Part shown: positions 6,292 through 55,991 of the stretch, piece after piece
How the letters are laid out: each line of letters begins with the position of its first letter
How positions within the stretch are numbered: the stretch's first letter is position 1
Origin: Fragilaria crotonensis
Taxonomy: Eukaryota > Bacillariophyta > Fragilariophyceae > Fragilariales > Fragilariaceae
Reading direction: 5' to 3'
NCBI GenBank assembly: GCA_022925895.1
Contig: JAKSYS010000014.1
Coordinates: forward strand, 207,807 to 271,806
Length of the DNA: 64,000 bases
Position numbers and translations under genes: made by a program
Notes under the pieces: model-generated
What the model was told of the DNA's origin: nothing
The model's input: only the letters and a program-made list of their open reading frames with translations
Database searches by the model: none

Positions 6292-6699
6292 AAATTGTTT
6301 TTCCAAGGAAATTTGACACACCATGGATATCATTCAATATGACAAGAGTATTGCACCTAAGTGAATTATGACCAATGTTGAGGTTGATGGACAGGATCAG
6401 AATGAAATGGTTTGCACCCATCGATGCTATCATGGGAAGATAAATGACGAAGAACGGCTCCAAAGAAGCGTGGTGAACATGGTTGATTTTTGTTTAGTCT
6501 ACAGGACGGGGTACGATATCTTCTGTGAAAGCTTGGAGTGGCAGGCGCTGCATTTGAGAAATGGATTATATAATAGACAAATGTACTAGATAGCAAACAT
6601 GGCCAAAAGATGTGTACTACAATGCAATTTAGAAATCATAATGTACTATATTGCAATACCGTACAAAACTAGATAGAGGGTCATTGTACTTTATAATCT
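6292..6699 (-). repeat. Right terminal inverted repeat of the MULE, inner part
   Basis: Reverse complement of 1266-1672. It is interrupted at 6699/6700 by a second element; the outermost 35 bp of the arm lie at 8035-8069. Confidence 0.9.
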
Positions 6700-24083: not shown

Positions 24084-27000
24084 CTACTGCCCTAATCCAT
24101 CAGTTACCAACAAACTGCGGACAAGTTTCATTTCCACTGTGGAGGCGATGTCAAACTTAGGGTCTCCAATCTTGCGAGTCAAAAGTTCATCGATCATTTT
24201 TCGTAGGCCACCGATCAAGGCACCAATGCGTGCATTGGCGGCCAATCGGACCCAATCCGCAACGACGATGACGCCGTTACTAGCCTGGACTTCAAGTTTA
24301 CCACCAAATAGTAGCAATGCGTAAGCACTGCATTCAGTACAGTCGCGAAGGAATGGTTTGGACGTTCGGAGCATTTCGTGGAAGACAAGCCAGGGACAAC
24401 TGAAGTTGCCCGTTGCAAAGTTCGCAGAGGCGGGGTGAATGAAGACCCGTTCTTCCGCGACGCCATGATGATGATATTGCATCCCGTCACGTGATCCGTC
24501 TGATTTGGGAGAATCATCAGACGCTTGAATAAAGAACTTGAGCTCCTTTGCCTCGCCGTCTTTCTCCTTGGCTCCGCCGATGGTCTCTGCGTATTTGCTA
24601 CTTGGTCGATGGACGCGAACCAACTGACTGGGAGCCAGTGCTGCAACAGCACAAGCTCGAATGATTCTCCAAGACTTAACGTTCCGATCAGATTCCTCTG
24701 TCAAATCGTATCCTGCAGCGGCCAACGACGCGTGGAGTTGGTTAACAAGCTGTTTCATGTCGCGCATGCCATTGACATTCAATCCTATCAAATCGCAGTA
24801 TTGGCGGCGCTCACGATCACCACAACTGTCCCACTGAAGGAAGGCAGCCGCCAGCATGGCATGGTCTGAGTTTCCAACCGTTTTGAACAGCTCCTTTCGA
24901 GCCTCCAAAGTGCGCTGTCGTTTCATCTCCTCGATCGTACTTTCTTTATCATCACCTACTCGTGCGAAGTTTTCCGTTGCCATGAATGGGCTTCGTCCGA
25001 TACTCATGCCTGCCGCCATGGCGAGGGCAGCACTGCGACAACCAAGGATAGACCCCATGATCATGATCTTTCCGACGGTAGGTGGGGCAGGAATGCCAGC
25101 TAAATGCATCCCGAGGGGCGTCAGGGACACGTTTCCATCGACGTCACGTGAAGAAACCGCTCCAAGTTTCTGAAGGCCAAGAATTGCAGATTCCACACTC
25201 GCTCGACTGGGAGGATCCAGCAACTCCTGGAAAAAATTACCTGAACCATTTTCAACGCCCAGAAACAACAGCACGAGTAGAATCTGATCTAAGGCGCAGC
25301 GATGTATTTCTGGGGTCCCGTGCTCATCTAGCATGTCGTAGGTGGCACGGGAGATAAGTTTGTAGCAAGTTCCAGCTTGCACACGCCCAGCTCGACCCCG
25401 TCGCTGCTTCAGACTGGACTTGGCAGCGAAGCCCTCCGAAAGGATGGGCATACGATTTACAGGGTCATAAGAGCTCTGTTTTTCTCGACAAGAATCAATC
25501 ACGAAGGTACAGTCTGGAATGGTGATCGAAGTCTCAGCAATATTGGTCGACACAATTATTTTGGTGTGTCCAGAGCGGGCAGGGCTGAATATCTTATTTT
25601 GATCCTTCGGTTGAAGACCTCCATGGAGAGGAAGCAAATCGATCGGAATCCCTCGGGTGGCTTTTTCAATTGCATTTATTGCTTTGTTGATCTCAGGAGC
25701 TCCCGACATAAAAACAAGTATCGAGCCACTGTCATCCTTGGTCTGAATTAATGATTTAACCAGCTGTCCAATCATGTCGAAGTCACAATGACTTTCGTCC
25801 ACTCGCTTGACAAGTTCCTCGATCGGAATGGTATGTCTGGGAGCGTTCGTTCCACTTGAAATTAATTTGACAGAGTTGTCGCCCTCGGTCTCGAGTGTAG
25901 AGTCTCCCTCGTCGTCGTCATCGGACCGCTCAGAGTCTGCCCAGGGATTGGGCTTCCTCTGGTTTTGATAGTTGGATCGGAAGAAGGACTTCTTTCCCTT
26001 CTTGGGAGGAATGTAGCCCGTGAGCGCAAGCACATCTTCAAGCATAAAATCGACAACGGGGAATGTCCTCCCTGATGTGCAAACGAGGTGTACTGGGTCC
26101 CCAGTAGCCAGCGAAGCGATCTGCGTCGAGGGTCGCTGACATTAATACTACTCGGAGATGAGGTGTACGGACAAGGCAATCCTTCAAGACCCCAAGGAGT
26201 ATATCTGAGTCCAAATGCCGTTCATGCACTTCGTCAACAATGACATGCGTGATACCATCGAAGGCGCCCTCGCTCTGCAGTTGTCGAAGAAGTACCCCAG
26301 TGGTACAAAACATGAGGCGTGTTCGCTCTGACATGGCAACATCCTCTAACCACATATCCAACAGTACCTATTCCAGGCTGCGACTCTCCACGCTCGTTAG
26401 CAACACGACTTGCCACACCAGTCGCTGCAAGTCGGCGAGGCTGAGCAACGACTATTTTCGCCTCCTCGGGCGATTCCTCCAAAATAAATTGAGGAATTTG
26501 TGTAGTCTTGAACGAGGACAACACTGTGAGTTGAATGCAGAGAATCGAAAGACCAAAGATACGAAACATACCTTTCCACAACCAGTGTCTCCAGTCACAA
26601 GAACAACACGACCCGTTGAAAGACAACGTTGCATTGCAACGAGAAAGTCTCCTCTTGCTTTTGCGGCGGGCAGACTTTCACGCTGCCGACGAATCGTCCC
26701 TTTAATATCTGGAAAGGGGACAGCTTTAGGTGTCAGCTTTGGCGACATCGTCCAAAACGATGCTCGTTGCTTGGGACGACAAAGATTGGTGGGGGAACGT
26801 GTTATGGGTTTCTCTCGAAGCGCCGGCGTCCGTTGCTGGCGACTATTTCTAATCTCTCCGATGGAGGGGAGAAGGAGCGGCATTACCTTGATTTCACCGT
26901 CAGCAGCTGCTTGCAAAAGGCTTTGTGCGTGTCCATAAATCTCGAAGATCATTGGCTCCGACAGCGGTAGCTCACTCAGAAACTTAATCAGCTTCACTTG

Positions 27001-28581
27001 CACGGCCGCGGCAACAGGCGACGACCATAAACCATAGATGAGTACTTGATCAGGGTGGATAGAGGGGTAAACACCATTCCTTGTTATTATCTTCATCTGA
27101 AGTTTTTGCACGCTCCCATCTTCTGGAAAAGAAAGCACCACACTGGTGATATCGTCTTGACGGAGAACTCGACATTCGTCTTCTGGAAATATTCCTTCGA
27201 GCGCCTCTAACTCGTCACGAGAAATTTCCAAATTCTGCTCCGGCTCCGAGCTCGTGTCGGTGTGAATCAGGGTTGCAGCCGCTTTAGAGCAAAGTGCCTT
27301 CCACAGAACTTGCTCCACAGAATCGCCCTCCGCCAGTCTCAGCAAGCTTGCTGCGTCCTCTATGGCAAGCCCGAACTTCGCGGCAATCTGTTGGGCCTCA
27401 GGAGTTGTCGCGGGTTGATCCGAAGACTTGCTGACACTTTGATTGACGATAACGTCGAGCGTCCGACCTCGAGGATCGAAGCCTTCCGGAAGCTGGTCTT
27501 CGTCCATATGGATACACAGCCACTGAAGGCATTCATCGTAGACAATATCCCACTGCTCCTCGTCAATGTCGGGTTGCATACTGTGTCTAAACTGCGCAAA
27601 TGATGTTTTGGCTTGAGTTTTTGAGAAGCCTTCGGAGTGGAGCCGCTCGACGACGTATGCCTTCAGGTCATTGTCTAGGTTATCGTCGTCATTCTCTTCG
27701 TCCGCCGAATTATCTTCCCACTGAATACTGTCACCGCGTAACAGCGTCTCAATTCGTTTTCGAATCTGTGCGGACATGAACACTTGGTGATCTTTGTTTG
27801 CAAGCCGCACAGCCTCATGTCTTCGTATGCGAGCATTTCGCTCTTGCTGTGTCCTAACCTGTTCTCTTTTTCGTTCCGCGAGAGACACAAATGATCTGCC
27901 TAAACTCAGGTTTGTCGATGCCTGGGCGCCGGCGTCCGATGTCGATCCAGCTGTTCTCGGAGAGTCATCAATCTTGCATTGATCGTCCACAGCATTTTGT
28001 TTCGCTCTGTGTGGATTCTTCTTCGTATCCTTGGCAGCATTGATAGCGTGTACCCATGTCGTCTTGTATGGTTCCGGGAGCTTTCGTTCATGCGGAATAT
28101 TGGGTGTCAAGTGGAGCAAGGCAAGCAATGCTGCCTCCTCCCGGGCTTGTTCCTCGTTTCCGCAGGCTTCCGCTGGAACAAAGATCATGTCATGCTCTGT
28201 GCCTCTTTTGGTGGCTTTGGCATCTTGTATAATCACTCTGAATTTGTATTGACCAATCGATTTGTATTTGGGCGGTGGTCGGCTCTCTTTCCTCGTGACC
28301 TCTTCGAGCAATGTAGATGGCAACTTTTGCCATTGAGCCACTGTCGTCTTGCCTATCTCGGTTGTTCGAGCCTCCACGGCTACACTGGATGTCTGTCCAG
28401 AACCCCCCTTCTGCTTGTGGCCTTTTCCGCCCCATTGTTGAGTCGCGGGATCCCATCGGTGGCCCTTCGACGGTCGATCAGGTCGGTTCCCACACGAACA
28501 AGAGTACGGGTGTTCACATGTACATTTCGGGATCTTTGTTGCTCCTTTCTCCGCCCCTTTTCCTCCTTTTGCCTTTCCCAT
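24084..28581 (-). CDS. DEAH-box RNA helicase of the DHX29/DHX57 type, with two frame breaks
   Basis: ATP-dependent RNA helicase. Exon 1 is 26572-28581 (ATG at 28581), with a 65-bp intron; exon 2 is 24084-26506. Order: a Lys/Gly-rich N terminus with clustered Cys (CTCEHPYSCSCG); a dsRBD-like region; a UBA-like helix (IAAKFGLAIEDAASLLRLA); an RWD domain (DELEALEGIFPEDECRVL); motif I GDTGCGK, joined across the intron to TTQIPQF; DEAH written DEVHERHLDSD; SATL; and motif VI QRRGRAGR. The HA2 and OB-fold C terminus is intact. Two frame breaks lie in the core. Near 26345 one copy of a 5-bp TTAGA may be missing between GYVVR and LEDVAMSERTR. Near 26073 one TC may be missing between PRLHI and GRTFPVVDFMLED. 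Both flanks match the family. Confidence 0.9.
26507..26571 (-). other. Intron within helicase motif I
   Basis: 65 bp, GTATGT...TTCAAG. Removing it joins GDTGCGK to TTQIPQFILEE, the expected Walker A continuation. Confidence 0.9.
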
Positions 28582-29032
28582 AATTATTGATATGTGTTTC
28601 CGCACAGATCGTCCATGGGGTCGAAGGTGCAATTTTGGGAGTTTAGTGAGGGGTGGCCCACCGACTTACACAAAACCTGAAATGCCGGTTTGAGTGACGA
28701 GTTTTGATGGATGGAATGCTGTCCTTCTACTCGTAACTCGTTAGGACGTCGTAGGACATACGTACTGGTAGTACGTACGGAGCATACAGTATTCATTATC
28801 TTTGCACCATCGGCACCTGGTACAGTACTCAGTAGCCTGGTAGCGCTGTTACAACTACCGTAGTATCAGTATACAGTATTCTACGACGCACTGGCACTTT
28901 TTCCAGACATAGAGTACAGTACTAGTACCGTAGTGTAATACCGGTAGTCCAAATAGCTGCAACAGTGTCCCAGTTATGATACACTGCCAAGAACAAGGGC
29001 ATTAAGTGATCAACGTCTTGACTGGGTAACCC
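28582..29032. promoter_or_regulatory. Shared divergent promoter region of helicase and TRAPPC2L
   Basis: 451 bp between two start codons that face away from each other. The central part (28740-28950) is packed with GTAC, TAGTAC and TACAGTA words. No TATA box stands out. Promoter role is inferred from geometry. Confidence 0.45.
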
Positions 29033-29724
29033 ATGGCGCTGCAATGTCTTGCTATCATTGGAAAGGTCAACGAGCCTCTCTATCTCACGGACGTCAAAAA
29101 TTCAGAGGAAGCTGGGGATGAAAACGATTTAGAAGATGCCTTCGGTTTCGCCGCGGCGCACGCTCAGGAACAATTGTCACTGCGCAGAGAGGTACGTTTG
29201 TGTGGCGATCACACGATGTTCGCCGCATCGATCCTCGTCATTCTGATTCCTTCCTTTCACATCCCTTCCTGTGAAGTTCATGATGCACGCATCAATCGAC
29301 AGTCTTGAAGAAGCCATGAGTGTGCACCGTCAGGGAAAGGGTCGTTCCAGTGTCGATGCGTCTAAGTGGATAGGACTTCTCTGTCCGATGGAAGAATCCT
29401 ACATTTATGGTAAGCACAATGGTGTGTTGAAAATTGGAAACAAATCTCAAAAATATGCATCTAATGTCTCATTATCTCAAACGTGCAAAAGGTTATGTGA
29501 CCTCGACCAATATCAAGGTCCTAGCTATGGTGTCGGAGTCCATGGACCCGAACCGAGAACTCCATCTCAAGGCACTCTTTGCGAAGGTTCACAATCTTTT
29601 TGTCGAGTATATGCTCAATCCATGGACGACGTTGCAGTGCAGGATTAAATCGAGTCGATTTGAGGAAGGCGTTGACAAGGCCGTCCGTGTTTACAATGAG
29701 AGCAATGGAGTCGCATGGGCGTGA
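29033..29724 (+). CDS. TRAPPC2L: TRAPP complex subunit 2-like (three exons)
   Basis: Sedlin-fold subunit of the TRAPP tethering complex and Rab exchange factor in ER-Golgi and Golgi traffic. Exons 29033-29191, 29277-29409 and 29492-29724; introns GTACGT...GTGAAG and GTAAGC...AAAAG; 174 residues. The N terminus MALQCLAIIGKVNEPLYL is the family signature. Exon 2 starts FMMHASIDSLEE and contains KWIGLLCPMEESYIYG. Exon 3 starts YVTSTNIKVLAMV and has ALFAKVHNLFVEYMLNPW and a C-terminal helix. The frame is intact. A decayed second copy of exons 2-3, including the intron between them, lies at 31556-31965, so this is the functional member of a local duplication. Confidence 0.95.
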
Positions 29725-29849
29725 GCTCTACTCTAAGTAAATCGCTATCCAACTGGATAAACGAATAATATGTGCGTAATCACATGTACTCCATTAGTTC
29801 TCACCCAGCACAGTTGCTGGCTTGATACTAGTCGTCTTGCGATGAACGT

Positions 29850-30134
29850 CAAACGAATAAGCACTAATGTTCAAGGAGTAAGAATTTCGTCGCACAGGCG
29901 TTTTAACTATTGTCACTAAAAGGCACCAGCAGCGCGCCTCGCCCACCAACGAACAGCGCCATAGGCAAGCAAAGTGCAGCTATTTCAATGTCTCGATGAC
30001 AGTAAACGCAGACTGACTGGGAAGGAACAGTTTCGAGGTGTTCTCGTTGATCCCTCTACCCACCACGCTGACACCGCCAACAACCCAATCCGTTTCATTG
30101 ACGAGAAACATCTTGCTGTTCTAACAAACTGAAA
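29850..30134 (-). pseudogene. Decayed 5' part of the short-chain dehydrogenase gene (copy 1)
   Basis: Matches 32610-32995 with many substitutions and deletions. It retains the N-terminal start region (ATG near 30111, then FLVNE and VVGG.VSVVGRGI) and the GCCTCGCCCACCAACGAACAGCGCC block, but lacks the 3' half. It still reads across the glycine motif where copy 2 is one base short. It lies just downstream of intact TRAPPC2L, the same arrangement as copy 2. Confidence 0.8.
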
Positions 30135-30200
30135 GGAGCCCAGGAGAGGATGACATTAATGTAGTGGTAGTGGCGGCAACGAACGCCTATCAAAATGGTG

Positions 30201-31018
30201 TTACGGGAGTTTCTTGTACGGAGTTGGCCATGATTTGAGGTCGGCACTGCCGGAAGGATCACTTTTGCATTTGTAAAGTCGAATCAAAAGGCGCGCTTCT
30301 TTGGACACCTTCTTCGCTTCTTGAACTCTTCCATACAACTTCGGAATATGCAATTGATACGCTTTGCCGTTTTCGACCAGGACGGTTACGCTTAATGACG
30401 ATTGATCGTGAAGCTTGAGCTTGACATCTTGGACTTTCGCATCTTTCCATGACAAAGTGTCATCAAGTTGATCAATACGGATGGTGCCCATGGCCTTTGA
30501 TCCCCAGGGTCGTCCCATTGATACTTTGTAATAGGAACATAGGAACTGGCAACAACTCGCGTGCTGGAAGCCACTCTCGTTTCGCTGCCTGACACAACCG
30601 ACGCCTGGGTGCCTGCTCGCAAATTCAGGCCACCCTTGCTCAAAAGTCGTGGGGTCTCCATCTGAAAGTCCTCCATACGAAGTCCATCTGTGTAACCGCC
30701 CGTCTTGCGCAGACTATTGTGGGCATAGTAGTACGACGATCCAAAAGGTTTGCCGTCGCTGTCGGTCTTCTGGATCTTTTCTTTCTGTGGATCCATTGCG
30801 CTGGCGTTCCTCCCAGATGTTTTCAATTGTCCAGTCGGTTTGATGTCAGCTTTTACTTTGCTATCTCCAATCTCCTTAGTCCAATCCTTCTCCTCTGATG
30901 GTTTGTGCATGCGTTGGTAGACAACGTAGGTCGATATGGACACCAGAATGAGGATCAACAGCATCACTGGAAATCCCTCGATGGACTTTAATACCTGGGC
31001 TTCCCATTTCTCAGACAT
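30201..31018 (-). CDS. Membrane-anchored CS-domain protein, with one frame break
   Basis: From the ATG at 31018 the protein has a short N terminus, one transmembrane helix (GFPVMLLILILVSISTYVVYQ), a hydrophilic linker, and then a CS domain of the p23/CacyBP/SGT1 fold: VPITKYQWDDPG, AKVQDVKLKLHDQSSLSV, VLVENGKAYQLHIPKLYG and ARLLIRLYKC. The closest likeness by motif spacing is the CS domain of calcyclin-binding protein. The reading frame shifts near 30494-30498 in GATCAAAGG; one more A would join the two halves without loss. The role is probably HSP90 co-chaperone or adaptor activity at a membrane, inferred from the fold. The gene lies between the two copies of the TRAPPC2L/dehydrogenase duplication. 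Confidence 0.75.
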
Positions 31019-31555
31019 GATAATTGTGTGGTCAAACCCCGCCTTTCAAGATCGCCTTTTTAATTGATTGAAGGGAAGCAAATCATCCAATGCCATCGCC
31101 GCATATGAGGCTTCCAATCATTCACAATGAAAGCCTGGCAAGATTTCCCAGCTCACTGTACTCCGAGTAGACAGTGGCCTACTTGTACCATTAGACTACG
31201 GTACTACCGGTAGTACTCAAAGTAGGTGCGCCTATCATACTATCATACATCATGTACCCTCTCTACGTACTCTAGAGTAGAGAGTAGCACATAGTTATTA
31301 GAGCGCTTGCAAGTCCTGTGCTGGAACTCAGTACCTGGTACTGGAGTACTCCAGTACAATCGTCGTATGGTACATCGTGTACAATATACTGTAGTACTAG
31401 CTAGTCACTGGTAGTGTACTCCGAGTCGCAATTCTGGAGTGGGAGTCCCGAGTCCCGAATCCCGAACAACATCAAATAAAGCACTGGGGACTGAACCTGT
31501 AGACTGTAGACACACTACGACTAGCTAGTAGTAATCCAAAGTCTAGCTAGAGAGA
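31019..31555. other. Intergenic DNA, very rich in GTAC words
   Basis: Between 31150 and 31560 GTAC, AGTACT and CTAGCTAG palindromes occur every few bases. No gene recognised. Confidence 0.55.
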
Positions 31556-31965
31556 GGAAGCCTCGAATGCACACAGTCAGGGAAACGGTCGTTCTGGTGG
31601 CGACACTTCCATATTGATAGGACTTCTCTGTCCCACGGAAGAATCGTACGTTTGTAGTCAGCATAATGGTGTGTTGAAAGTTGGAACATAATCTAAAGTC
31701 TCGTTATCACGAACGTGCATAAGGTTATGTGACCTCGACAAATATCAAGTCCATGGAACCGAACTGCGAACTCCACCTCAAGGCGCACTTTGCGAAGGTT
31801 CACAACCTTTTGTGGAATACATGCCCAATCCGTGGACGATGTTGCCGTGTAGGATTAGATCGAGTCGTTTGCCGAAGGCTCTGACGAGACTGCCCTTGTC
31901 TACAATGAAAGCAATAGCATCGCATGGTATGGGCTGCACCCCAAGTAGCTGACTTTCCAACTGTT
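31556..31965 (+). pseudogene. Decayed TRAPPC2L copy (exons 2-3)
   Basis: Base-level match to 29303-29765, including the intron between exons 2 and 3, so it arose by DNA duplication and not by reverse transcription. Numerous substitutions, a TAG where the exon 2 donor should be, deletions (for example part of ATGGTGTCGGAG) and stops abolish the frame. It lies in the same position relative to the intact dehydrogenase as intact TRAPPC2L does to the dehydrogenase pseudogene. Confidence 0.9.
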
Positions 31966-32139
31966 CGCTATCACGTATACTTTGATGTTAGATGAATTGC
32001 GACAAAGGTCTTATTTTTATATTTGATGCATTGCGACAAGAGAATACAACACACGTGTTGTCTAATGTAGTCGTTACTGAGTAGCACCTCCGATTCTTCC
32101 TCATCGTTTCTCAGGTTTTTATTATCTACAACGATCCGG

Positions 32140-32975
32140 TCATGGCTCCGTGATTATCACACAAGTAATGGGAATTGGCTTGACAGTTGCATCAACAGAA
32201 ACGTGATATTCGCGCATGACATCCTGCAACTCATCAACTGAATCCAACTTGATCAGGCGCCCATGCTCTACAGGCCTGGCAGCCAACCCCGCACACAAGT
32301 CTCCAACAGCCTCCGAGATCGGTTCGTTCATACCAGCAACAGGAATACCCACGCGCACTTCACGGCAAGTCACCTTGGATCCCTTCAATTCGTGTCGCAA
32401 GGCTGCGGAGAGCCCCCACACGTGATGGGAATTGATCTCACCCATGGCGGTTCGCTCGCCACCGGGTTTGCCCGATCCATCGCCTGTGACAAAGGTGTAG
32501 GTCGGCGTGTTACCGGACAAACGAGGAATAAGCTGCTGCGCCGCACTCAAGTGAAGCGAGGCCAACTGAGATGAAGATGGACTGAACTCGTCCAATTTCA
32601 TGTTGAGCAATGAGTCGTTTGCTTTTATGTTCAACGAGTAAGACTCGTCGCATTGCGCCTTGAATTCGTAGTACTCAAAAGAACCGGTAGTGGGCCTCGC
32701 CCACCAACGAACAGCGCCATGGGCAATCACATGGTGCAAAGGCCTCTGTTTCAAGGTCTCAATGACAGTGAACGCAGACTGACCGGGAAGCAAAGATCCA
32801 TGAACAGTCACGAGGCGTTCTGGGAATGCGAGTGTTTCTTGAAGAGTTTGGAGACGGGCCTCGGATCTGGAATTAACAATGACAGTGGCTCCAGCTTGAA
32901 GCAATCCGCGGGTGATTCCTCTACCCACAACTCCCACACGCCAACAACCCAAGCAGTTTGATTGACGAGAGACAT
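32140..32975 (-). CDS. SDR-like NAD(P)-dependent oxidoreductase, one frame break near the start
   Basis: Rossmann-fold short-chain dehydrogenase-like protein of about 280 residues. The ATG at 32973-32975 gives MSLVNQTAWVVG; the frame then shifts near 32937-32942 to continue VGVVGRGITRGLLQAGATV and VNSRSEARLQTLQ, the glycine loop and basic residue of an NADP site. Comparison with the decayed copy at 29850-30134, which has one more G here, shows that a single G is missing. The usual SDR Tyr-x-x-x-Lys is not evident: the region after VTGDGSGKPGGERTAMGEI aligns with the catalytic segment but is divergent, so activity is uncertain. It is convergent with the TRAPPC2L relic and divergent from RAB6. 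Confidence 0.7.
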
Positions 32976-34819
<1,844 letters not shown>

Positions 34820-48290: not shown

Positions 48291-48931
48291 CGTGTCTGGT
48301 TTGACGAAGTCCCTTCGCTTTGAGTCACGATTCTACAAGGTGCAAAATAGGAGAAACGTGGACAGCAGTAAGATCTCAGTCCAGTTAGAAAGATTCGTTG
48401 CTGTTTTCCTCACGTGATGGTGCAAAAGGTTGCTGCAACAAAAACGTTAGCGAAAAAAGCCTCTCGGTCTAATTCTTGTAAACTACCAAGAGGAAATCCC
48501 CTCTCGATGATCAGCAGCTTCCTTCACTTCACAAGTCCTTCTAGGAGAACAACTTGCAGCAATTATTGTGGTTGCGTAAAAGTTGAACTGATGCAAAAGC
48601 AGCACAAGTTCCGTTCAACTTTTAGGTGTCTGTGAGTCACTGTAGTTAACCTGATGCACGGGGCGCAACAAAATTTCAGCGTATCTGCAAATATTCCTCC
48701 CGGTTTTATTGACGGTGCACAACGTGTGAAACATGTTAGTTTGTAGTTTGTAGTTGTAGTACTCCCGTAGAACCAGTCGGTTGATGTGACATATGACATA
48801 CTCGAGTACAAGTATTATTTGTGCAGTAGATAGTCCCAAGGATATGCTACTATAATAGGCGACGGTAGAGAGAGTAGAGTTGTACATAGTACAAGGTATC
48901 TGGTACCTGGTACCAGGTACCAGTTAGTACG
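48291..48931. other. Intergenic DNA between the PIP kinase and the DIRS element
   Basis: No gene recognised. The last 40 bp before the element are repeated GGTACC words. Confidence 0.45.
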
Positions 48932-48932
48932 C

Positions 48933-49029
48933 GGGATGCGTATCCTTTCCCGCCTCAGCGGCTGTTCGACGTCCTGGTCGGTCCTATGACGGTGTAGTGT
49001 TATGTGGTAGTGGCTAATAAATAGTGGTA
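48933..49029 (-). repeat. B2 repeat, outer part
   Basis: Matches 50023-50119 almost exactly. Interrupted at the TA at 49028-49029 by the MITE. Confidence 0.9.
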
Positions 49030-49626
49030 CCACATAAAAAGTGCCTGGAGCCGTTATTTTAACCCCGTTGTGGACTAAAGATATCTCGCTCAAAAATGCT
49101 TTGATTTCAAGTCTGTTTGCTTACAAATAGTGTTCAATGTTCTTGACTATCCAGTGCATTAATCATTCTTGTACTGAAGCAAGAATTGACAAAGTTGTTG
49201 CTGAACTTGCGAAGCTCATTTTTGCATTTAAAGGCTCCAGGCACTTCATTTAAATGTATACGTACCTTAAGACATTTTTTAGGCATCGGTTGAGATTTTT
49301 CACCCCATTCGACCATGATTTCTCGTACTAGGTTTTTACTGCTACAGAGTTTTTCCCTATTGGTGGTACGCGATCAATGAGGTGAAAACCCGAAGGGGGT
49401 GAAAAATTGCCGACCCTCAACATGCAGTTGCATTCACAACCCCAGTTTACTAATCGGTTCGTTAACTGCTCTAGATGACATTGCTGTATTGCATATCAGA
49501 GATCAACTCGGCTGTGCTTATGTCCATTGAATTCTTGAAATTGAGTGACTTCTTTGTAGGAGGAGTCGAAAAAACCCCGTTTAACGGCTCCAGCGGTCGA
49601 AACGGCTCCAGGCACTTTGTATGTGG
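49030..49626. mobile_element. 597-bp MITE with TA target duplication
   Basis: Splits the B2 repeat exactly where B1 is continuous. Ends are inverted repeats CCACATAAAAAGTGCCTGG and CCACATACAAAGTGCCTGG (26 bp with one mismatch, continuing GAGCCGTT), flanked by TA on both sides (49028-49029 and 49627-49628). A TA duplication points to the Tc1/mariner superfamily. No coding capacity is seen. A second internal copy of the CGGCTCCAG end motif lies near 49580-49600. Confidence 0.9.
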
Positions 49627-49628
49627 TA

Positions 49629-49728
49629 GTGGGTGATTGGTGGTGGTGACAACTTTACTAGGTGTTACCGTAGCCAGCCACCCCGGATGGACTGTAGCGC
49701 TGTCTGACAGTGCCTACCGTCCGGTGCG
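49629..49728 (-). repeat. B2 repeat, inner part
   Basis: Matches 50121-50220. It is followed by a 15-bp linker (GAGTGGGCGGGTGGG) before A2. Confidence 0.9.
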
Positions 49729-49743
49729 GAGTGGGCGGGTGGG

Positions 49744-50022
49744 CGAAAAACTTCCGCTAGCTCTGTAGCTCCTGCTCTTCACACACCGTGGTAGCCTAAC
49801 TAGTAGTAGGCTCCTCGACACTCGTGTGAGATGATCTTGCCGTCGCAATGGTAATTGCCACAACAATGAGCGAATTCGAGCTGCTGTCGTCTCCTGTTCA
49901 AGTGCCGAGTTCTTTAACGAAGTTGTCCACGCCCCCCGTCGTACTGTGGACATGTAGTGAACGTGTGTGACGGGGGCGTCGTGTGTCTGACCTCAACCGT
50001 CCGTCTTCCCTGCCGCTGACGG
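49744..50022 (-). repeat. A2 repeat of the DIRS element
   Basis: 279 bp, apparently identical to A1 (55713-55991). It encodes the same N-terminal peptide as the start of the gag ORF, which here is cut off after about 70 codons. Confidence 0.92.
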
Positions 50023-50220
50023 CGGGATGCGTATCCTTTCCCGCCTCAGCGGCTGTTCGACGTCCTGGTCGGTCCTATGACGGTGTAGTGTTATGTGGTA
50101 GTGGCTAATAAATAGTGGTAGTGGGTGATTGGTGGTGGTGACAACTTTACTAGGTGTTACCGTAGCCAGCCACCCCGGATGGACTGTAGCGCTGTCTGAC
50201 AGTGCCTACCGTCCGGTGCG
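50023..50220 (-). repeat. B1 repeat of the DIRS element
   Basis: 198 bp, continuous copy of the B repeat. The recombinase ORF stops inside it (50206). Confidence 0.92.
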
Positions 50221-53846: not shown

Positions 53847-55922
53847 TCACGCTCCTACATGCTGATGTGTTGTCGGTGTTGCGTCAAGGTAGATGTCCGG
53901 GATGCTCACCCAATTCGTTGACTGGTGGAATGTTCCCCTCTTCAATTCGGTCAACATACCGTCGAAAACCGGAACTGGTATACCGGCCACGCCAGCCGCA
54001 ACGTTCGTTGCCACCGACGAAAGATAGTCATGCACATTGAGCTGTATAGCTCGAACAATACGGGCGTGGTACGTGGCGGCGATGCCTGGGTGCCGCGCGA
54101 GATGCTGGTACTGCTCCGTGATGAAAGGCGCGATGTTCTGCAAGCTTGCCGCGGCATTCCACATGGCCACAGTGAACGGGTGTGGTGCGCCCGCGCCTTG
54201 AAACAAGCACTGGCACAGCACGGCGAAGCGCGTCATAGTGATACACACGTCCGAGATATCTCGAGGAAATTGTACCTTCTCCGACTCGCGAATCGTCCTA
54301 TAATCCGCCAAGCTTGCGTTGTGCTCACCTTGTGCCAGTTGGTTTCCTACGTTGGCTGCTGACAGTGCGAGGTAATGTTGATCCGTGCCCGCATATGCGA
54401 CCAAGAAAGGCTGGCAGCCGGAGGTCAAATCGTCCGCGCCATATCCCGTGAACTGAAAGCTCACAACCATCTGCTTGAGTGTGGATGTGATTACGGGAAC
54501 GTACAGCTCTGTGGATAACCCCCTGGCCATGCAGACCTTCTGGAGTTCTTGGGTGAGCACGGTGTGTTGCTCCCCTTTGTGACAGTTCGCCAGGCGATGC
54601 CACAACGGTGCCACACCATCGACCGCCTCTGCATTACAGTACTTGAGCAGCGTAGGAAACGTCTCCTTATAGGCATCCACAATGGTTCTTGGCGCTCGAA
54701 TGACGTCCTCACCCTCGCGCCCCCCTCGCGTCGCTCGTGATGCTTCGAGGATTCGCAAGGCACCGGCGAGTGTTTCGGCTCCTGGACCGCCGCCGAGTCG
54801 CTCCGGCGCCACCAGTACGGGGAGGTCGGATTGCACTTTCGCGGTAACGTACCGGTAGACCTCCGGTGGAAGGTGCAGTGGTGTGAAAGCGTGTAACACA
54901 CTCGGTAGCGCCGTCTGCGCTCCGCCACCCCCGCGTGCTGTGCATGCAGCTCTGAGCCACGCAATGACATCGTGACACGACTCAACTTCGTTTTGGGCTT
55001 GGATGGCCCCAACTATTTCTTGGTATGCCTGCTTAGGGCGTACACGACGTCGATGGATGATGAGCGAGGCGTATCGACCAGGAATGAGTTGCACGTGACG
55101 GGTGCGGATCACTTCAGTCTCTGGGTCCTGCTCTGTAAAAGGGCCTATGACGGGATCCCCATCGTTCCACGTGAGCAACAGCGTTGCCATCGCAGCTGTA
55201 GTCGGCACCCGTACTGCGTTACTGACAAGGTGAAACGTAGTGTTGGGTACGTCCACTACTGGATATTGGTGCGGAAGTATGTCGCCCATGAGACCTAGAA
55301 CGTAGTCGTTCAAACCGGTGGGATCGTCCCCTGGTGCCTCTACGTATCGAAGCAAGCGATGCACGACTACCACCTCCAAGCCCCCGTCAGCTCCTGTCAC
55401 CAACGCAAGGAATGCCATAGGCTGTCGATCGCTTAGGAATACCGTTTGGTCACGCAGTGTCGCAGGTGCAGGTACGACACCGCCGCCCGGGTCCGCGAAA
55501 CGATAGCCAGCCAGGTAGCCCCCAGTACGCGCGGGAGAGGGATTGTTAGCCGCGTCGGCATACAGCTCTCGGTAGGTGCGTGGCTGAGCTGGTACCGCCA
55601 TTGGAGCAACTGCCGGAATGGCTTCAGCAGGCGGTAGTTCTCCGCCTACCGCTGCACCATAATAGGGTTGGGCCATGTTGCGTGTATACGCTTGCTGCGC
55701 CCTAAGCCCCTCCGAAAAACTTCCGCTAGCTCTGTAGCTCCTGCTCTTCACACACCGTGGTAGCCTAACTAGTAGTAGGCTCCTCGACACTCGTGTGAGA
55801 TGATCTTGCCGTCGCAATGGTAATTGCCACAACAATGAGCGAATTCGAGCTGCTGTCGTCTCCTGTTCAAGTGCCGAGTTCTTTAACGAAGTTGTCCACG
55901 CCCCCCGTCGTACTGTGGACAT
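53847..55922 (-). CDS. Gag-like structural protein of the DIRS element
   Basis: 691 codons on the minus strand. The first 69 codons lie in the A1 repeat (ATG at 55922); another good start is the ATG at 55676 (MAQPYYGAAVGGELPP), just downstream of A1. The body is Ala/Val-rich and partly helical with no zinc knuckle of its own; a CCCH cluster follows in another frame. Identity as Gag rests on position (5' ORF of a retroelement) and size. Composition (high GC) differs from the surrounding host DNA. Confidence 0.7.
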   Translation of the reverse strand: MSTVRRGAWTTSLKNSALEQETTAARIRSLLWQLPLRRQDHLTRVSRSLLLVRLPRCVKSRSYRASGSFSEGLRAQQAYTRNMAQPYYGAAVGGELPPAEAIPAVAPMAVPAQPRTYRELYADAANNPSPARTGGYLAGYRFADPGGGVVPAPATLRDQTVFLSDRQPMAFLALVTGADGGLEVVVVHRLLRYVEAPGDDPTGLNDYVLGLMGDILPHQYPVVDVPNTTFHLVSNAVRVPTTAAMATLLLTWNDGDPVIGPFTEQDPETEVIRTRHVQLIPGRYASLIIHRRRVRPKQAYQEIVGAIQAQNEVESCHDVIAWLRAACTARGGGGAQTALPSVLHAFTPLHLPPEVYRYVTAKVQSDLPVLVAPERLGGGPGAETLAGALRILEASRATRGGREGEDVIRAPRTIVDAYKETFPTLLKYCNAEAVDGVAPLWHRLANCHKGEQHTVLTQELQKVCMARGLSTELYVPVITSTLKQMVVSFQFTGYGADDLTSGCQPFLVAYAGTDQHYLALSAANVGNQLAQGEHNASLADYRTIRESEKVQFPRDISDVCITMTRFAVLCQCLFQGAGAPHPFTVAMWNAAASLQNIAPFITEQYQHLARHPGIAATYHARIVRAIQLNVHDYLSSVATNVAAGVAGIPVPVFDGMLTELKRGTFHQSTNWVSIPDIYLDATPTTHQHVGA

Positions 55923-55991
55923 GTAGTGAACGTGTGTGACGGGGGCGTCGTGTGTCTGACCTCAACCGTCCGTCTTCCCTGCCGCTGACGG
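55713..55991 (-). repeat. A1 repeat of the DIRS element
   Basis: 5' terminal repeat, 279 bp, same as A2 at 49744-50022. The first in-frame ATG of the gag ORF lies within it. Confidence 0.92.

Follow-up and report, generated by a model that had tools for sequence, protein, structure and literature searches.

The locus described here lies in a 64-kb window on contig C66 of the Fragilaria crotonensis assembly (62.1 Mb, 881 contigs, searched as a whole); the window is the entire stretch of DNA that we analyzed. Two copies of one unit are found in it, each made of sequence from a TRAPPC2L-like gene (T) and a weakly SDR-like gene (S). At the left copy (site A), T is intact on the plus strand (29033–29724) and is followed by a remnant of S on the minus strand (29867–30151). 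At the right copy (site B), a T remnant (31554–31963, plus strand) is followed by a near-complete S (32140–32975, minus strand). The order and orientation are the same at both sites, i.e. T converges on S. As delimited by BLAST, a repeat search, and a comparison of the edges with shuffled sequences, the duplicated unit runs from T exon 2 to the 5′ end of S, covering 29307–30151 at site A and 31554–33015 at site B, and a CS-like gene (30201–31018, minus strand) sits between the copies. Neither structured RNA nor tRNA genes were found in the window (Rfam at the gathering threshold; ARAGORN). By eye, many short GTAC/CTAGTA words are present in the intergenic stretches at 28740–28960, 31140–31550, and 33390–33440.

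T consists of three exons (29033–29191, 29277–29409, and 29492–29724) with open frames and GT-AG introns. Its product matches the Pfam domain Sedlin_N at 77.5 bits (cut-off 23.1; E = 1.3e-21), and TRAPPC2L (7b6d_H, E = 1.5e-13) is its only PDB match at E ≤ 0.001. An intact TRAPPC2L gene is what a sequence-only reading of this DNA had recognized here, and the label is well supported by these matches. Sedlin_N pieces occur at two further places in the assembly, on contigs C225 and C493, neither of which is matched by the T-S DNA query. In the viral_contigs collection, which is not meant for eukaryotes, 0 of 7 matches to T were confirmed. As for other families, the chlorophyll-binding family has 61 matched pieces in the assembly, and the closest PDB entries to its plastid RbcL are 7yk5, 5n9z, 5mz2, 5oya, and 6ftl, all diatom enzymes.

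The same reading took S for an intact dehydrogenase. The gene at site B is indeed near-complete, but its frame changes near position 32938 and its SDR matches all fall below threshold: 16.7 bits against a cut-off of 26.6 for Pfam adh_short, and at best 22.1 against 238 for the NCBIfam SDR models. The one match among PDB sequences (E = 0.14) is at the level of chance. SDR proteins typically carry a Gly-rich cofactor motif and a Tyr-x-x-x-Lys motif; the S frame contains VVGRG, shows no clear YxxxK by eye, and yields a single-sequence model with a pLDDT of 37. We treat S as SDR-like at most, and the label dehydrogenase as weak. The S protein has only 1 match in the genome, and 0 of 30 pattern matches were confirmed in the genome_contigs collection, which is also not meant for eukaryotes. 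The long frame of S (32140–33093) lacks an ATG; the ATG at 32975, which is common to the S remnant, lies in the other frame, with the switch near 32938, and 786 nt stay open.

The frame change might be real, in which case the copy at site B would have lost its frame recently, both S copies would be dead, and the locus would have kept T and lost S. The long frame without an ATG, the frame change itself, and the fact that no other S was found in the genome all speak for this reading, which we nonetheless hold to be improbable. In particular, 786 nt are still open and past constraint is visible, and the chance of so long an open stretch is about 0.02 if S has been dead for half the age of the duplication and 0.15 if for a quarter. 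This estimate uses the gap rate of the T remnant (6 in 410 bp), with two thirds of gaps assumed to be frame-breaking, and is rough because some of the one-base gaps may be assembly errors.

Conserved genes with similar defects also argue against a dead S. For example, the Rab6 gene at 34132–34819 (plus strand) switches frame near 34608, at a place where an intron would not fit; its alignment runs in one frame up to the RKAKE region and continues in another, and its next best genome match is 44% identical. A frame switch in this conserved region points to an indel that the assembly introduced into an essential gene. A DEAH-box helicase gene (24084–28665, minus strand; best PDB matches DHX29 and DHX36) switches frame near 26340; a second switch, near 26098, is seen by eye. 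Elsewhere in the assembly, tables read by eye show HSP70 genes on C452, C358, and C548 and CCT genes on C485, C238, and C12 as pieces that adjoin or overlap but differ in frame; other members of these families (C38, C218, C140, C257, C138, and C497) are unbroken over their matched length. On the plastid contig (C881), a 3.2-kb dnaK/groEL segment is present twice in inverted orientation; aligned over 3232 columns, its copies show 0 substitutions, and homopolymer length differs by one base in 4 places. In this assembly, a one-base break of the frame is no safe sign of gene death. Given the similar small defects in the Rab6, DEAH helicase, HSP70, and CCT genes and in the plastid repeat, an assembly indel is the likelier explanation for the frame break in S. 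The proposal that function is preserved at the locus would hold if the break is such an error, as the neighboring genes make likely without proving it.

BLAST finds three blocks of similarity between the sites. The T block (29307–29755 vs 31554–31963) has 74% identity including gaps (E = 1e-81), and two S blocks (29867–30027 vs 32627–32793 and 30048–30151 vs 32913–33015) have 76% (E = 1e-24) and 83% (E = 8e-21), respectively. The blocks are collinear and the repeat search agrees with them. When 29033–30134 was compared with the whole assembly, 4 matches were returned among the best candidates scored, i.e. the segment itself and the three blocks. The similarity is significant well beyond short exonic motifs, as it runs from T exon 2 through intron 2 and into exon 3, and the paired T-S duplication proposed from sequence alone is supported by the shared order, orientation, and similar divergence of the blocks. 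The T block has 76 mismatches in 410 aligned sites and the S blocks have 46 in 261 (approximately 18% overall). Because T and S diverged alike, one duplication event suffices. That the duplication was created in assembly, for instance from a misplaced allele or as a chimera, is extremely improbable. Indel errors do exist in this assembly, but sequencing error does not produce substitutions at approximately 18% of sites, deletions of several bases, flanks that differ, and divergence structured by codon position.

Self-matches of at least 100 bases give 11 rows in the 64-kb window, a number that is no firm guide to rarity; 3 come from the T-S locus and the remainder are near-identical or short-range repeats. 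Several direct repeats of 99–279 bases with 100% identity lie at 48931–50220 and 55713–55991, and represent a very recent duplication, a mobile element, or an assembly artefact. A 408-base inverted repeat with 99.75% identity (1266–1672 vs 6292–6699) possibly marks the ends of a mobile element.

The remnant of T, established by alignment and a frame check, comprises exon 2 from base 31 onwards, followed by intron 2 and exon 3. Significant homology to its parent and the retained intron 2 characterize it as an unprocessed pseudogene. The decayed TRAPPC2L with an intron that had been described at site B is present as far as intron 2 goes, but exon 1, intron 1, and the ATG are not there. The parent protein can no longer be encoded: exon 1 with its ATG is missing, a TAG occurs in frame two codons upstream, and exon 3 carries a 21-nt in-frame deletion along with three one-base gaps, part of which could be assembly errors. 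With each piece read in its own frame, the remnant has no stop before the position of T's own stop. Between 1.4 and 2.0 stops are expected (chance of none 0.14–0.24), and the stop-free remnant leans slightly towards slower decay.

In the remnant of S at site A, alignment and translations show the ATG kept at 30111, an in-frame nonsense codon, and a net internal loss of about 99 nt, and the alignment detects no counterpart for the C-terminal 487 of 836 nt. The coding sequence is thus disabled, as in an unprocessed pseudogene. The nonsense codon and the missing part are independent of the question of assembly indels. The left site therefore does hold a decayed gene, as had been proposed, although the label dehydrogenase stays below the cut-offs. 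The statement that each copy kept a different gene may hold: T is whole at site A and S nearly whole at site B, but the S frame is broken, probably by an assembly error.

The edges of the unit were assessed by comparing the best flank alignment score with 100 shuffles. No standout similarity is found to the left of 29307/31554 (score 27; shuffles mean 21, maximum 28, with 3 of 100 reaching the score), nor any clear similarity to the right of 30151/33015 (score 28; mean 23, maximum 34, 6 of 100). Crosswise flank controls, in which homology is not expected, score 25–28, with 1, 6, and 4 shuffles per 100 reaching the score. We regard both positions as edges of the unit, with slight reserve for the left one, which is borderline (3 of 100 shuffles). 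The spacers between T and S at sites A and B are no more alike than shuffled sequence (29 of 100 shuffles reach the score), nor does spacer A resemble the part of S that is missing (21 of 100).

Because the left edge falls on base 31 of T exon 2, T at site B has neither the start codon nor exon 1, intron 1, or any known promoter. The right edge precedes the S start codon by approximately 40 bases, and the S copy thus had its coding sequence and little old upstream DNA. Since detectable homology starts inside T exon 2, the simplest reading is that T at site B was truncated at birth and that only S clearly had a "choice." The sharp 5′ edge inside exon 2 weighs against clean reciprocal degeneration of two complete pairs, as the sequence-only reading had it. 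In that scenario, two complete T-S pairs were formed and each later lost a different gene, with exon 1 and the promoter being deleted from the second T. We find this unlikely, although T exon 1 could have been deleted at site B afterwards: large deletions in both remnants make a later 5′ deletion there possible, T and S have diverged to a similar extent, and the coding part of the T remnant is free of stops, though not significantly so. Against it stand the homology edge within exon 2, with nothing clear upstream, and the codon-position data given below.

The gene between the copies (30201–31018) was defined by its frames and weak fold matches. It encodes an N-terminal hydrophobic segment and a C-terminal beta sandwich, with an apparent frame switch near 30520–30546. 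Neither piece has a Pfam match over the cut-off. In a model with a pLDDT of 58, the best fold matches are Hsp20 and the SGT1 CS domain (E = 0.01–0.02), and none reaches E ≤ 0.001. The sandwich is possibly of the CS/alpha-crystallin type, so the CS-domain gene proposed here is backed by a weak fold match and by no Pfam domain. A perfect 8-base tandem repeat (30531–30546) lies beside the frame switch, which could be a real mutation there rather than an assembly error.

The direct orientation of the copies and the position of the CS-like gene exactly between them would also fit a tandem duplication of T, S, and the CS-like gene together, followed by complete loss of the second CS-like copy. We judge this to be slightly less probable even than a dead S, as 30152–31553 has no clear trace to the right of 33015, where 6 of 100 shuffles reach the score of 28. 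Furthermore, no second copy of the CS-like gene was found in the genome but only a 30-base match elsewhere (about 31330–31359, recurring exactly on contig C284), although the equally old remnants of T and S are easy to recognize.

Between T and its remnant, differences at codon positions 1, 2, and 3 number 12/105, 19/104, and 27/103, and those in the intron and 3′ sequence 23/103 (18/98 for non-coding sites on the trimmed alignment). For S, the values are 12/93, 8/89, and 20/89 in a global alignment in which some columns are uncertain, and 11/73, 5/72, and 16/72 in the BLAST blocks alone. The ratio of positions (1 + 2) to position 3, after JC correction and with bootstrap intervals, is 0.51 (0.29–0.90) for T, 0.45 (0.21–0.95) for S, and 0.49 (0.32–0.77) for both pooled. 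A ratio of approximately 0.5 is expected for one constrained and one neutral copy, and of 1 for two neutral copies. The data fit one copy being constrained on average and the other mostly neutral, each gene alone being weak evidence given its wide intervals. A ratio near 0.5 leaves scant room for the long shared function that two complete pairs would have had, again within wide intervals.

Divergence per site ranges from 0.21 (T intron and 3′ sequence) to 0.30 (pooled third positions). For Phaeodactylum, PMC6604790 gives 4.77e-10 substitutions per site and generation; at this rate the duplication would be approximately 2.2–3.1e8 generations old, provided that F. crotonensis mutates alike. With such divergence and age, decay is not at an early stage. 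The locus had been presented as caught in mid-process, which does not agree with copies that differ at approximately 18% of aligned sites and have a silent divergence of about 0.2–0.3, and its use as a natural clock holds for a single locus only.

Taken together, we consider it probable that a segment of approximately 1.46 kb, reaching from inside T exon 2 to a point some 40 bases before the S start codon, was duplicated with T truncated, and that the copy landed beyond the CS-like gene in direct orientation. Site A would be the simplest source, as it is the only one with a complete T. The T copy at site B would have been inert from birth, never having worked without exon 1 and a promoter. S would have been redundant at first, with the copy at site B surviving, its frame break being an assembly indel, and the copy at site A losing its C-terminal part and decaying. 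The net effect would be that S shifted past its neighbor through duplication and loss. Survival of S at site B rather than site A would have been roughly a coin toss, and in one gene pair this makes the complementary pattern little surprising.

Unprocessed (duplicated) pseudogenes arise from small segmental duplication. The T-S locus resembles them in its retained intron, its closeness to a functional parent, its disabled sequence, and its relaxed constraint, but differs in that two linked genes form one unit and the survivors lie on opposite copies. Reciprocal gene loss, or divergent resolution, is usually described between lineages or after genome duplication. As in those cases, each copy of the unit would retain a different gene; here, however, this occurs within a single locus of 4 kb, in which S was probably the only gene with two complete copies. 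The locus is also like partial gene duplicates, in which a breakpoint within a gene leaves a truncated copy (PMC3449122). Such duplicates are common in the animal surveys that this review quotes, at 63% of events in mutation-accumulation lines of Caenorhabditis elegans and 76% of duplications among natural lines of Drosophila melanogaster, but few in yeast, which has a compact unicellular genome (PMC3449122).

The T-S locus looks like an ordinary outcome of small duplication, with some local value as a record of decay. Taken alone, the locus is an example of a common type of process. It is possible, though we hold this only tentatively, that S was relocated by partial duplication: the daughter S, with its coding sequence but no more than about 40 bases of the former upstream DNA, would have come under new regulatory DNA next to Rab6 and taken the place of the parent S, which would have decayed where it lay; if true, the regulatory neighborhood of S changed while its protein stayed nearly the same. 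The paired record probably stems from one event and offers two remnants of the same age near their surviving parents, with exon and intron both comparable. With relatives, it could gauge the rate at which dead sequence is deleted from a compact algal genome, and could show whether small duplications move genes between promoters.
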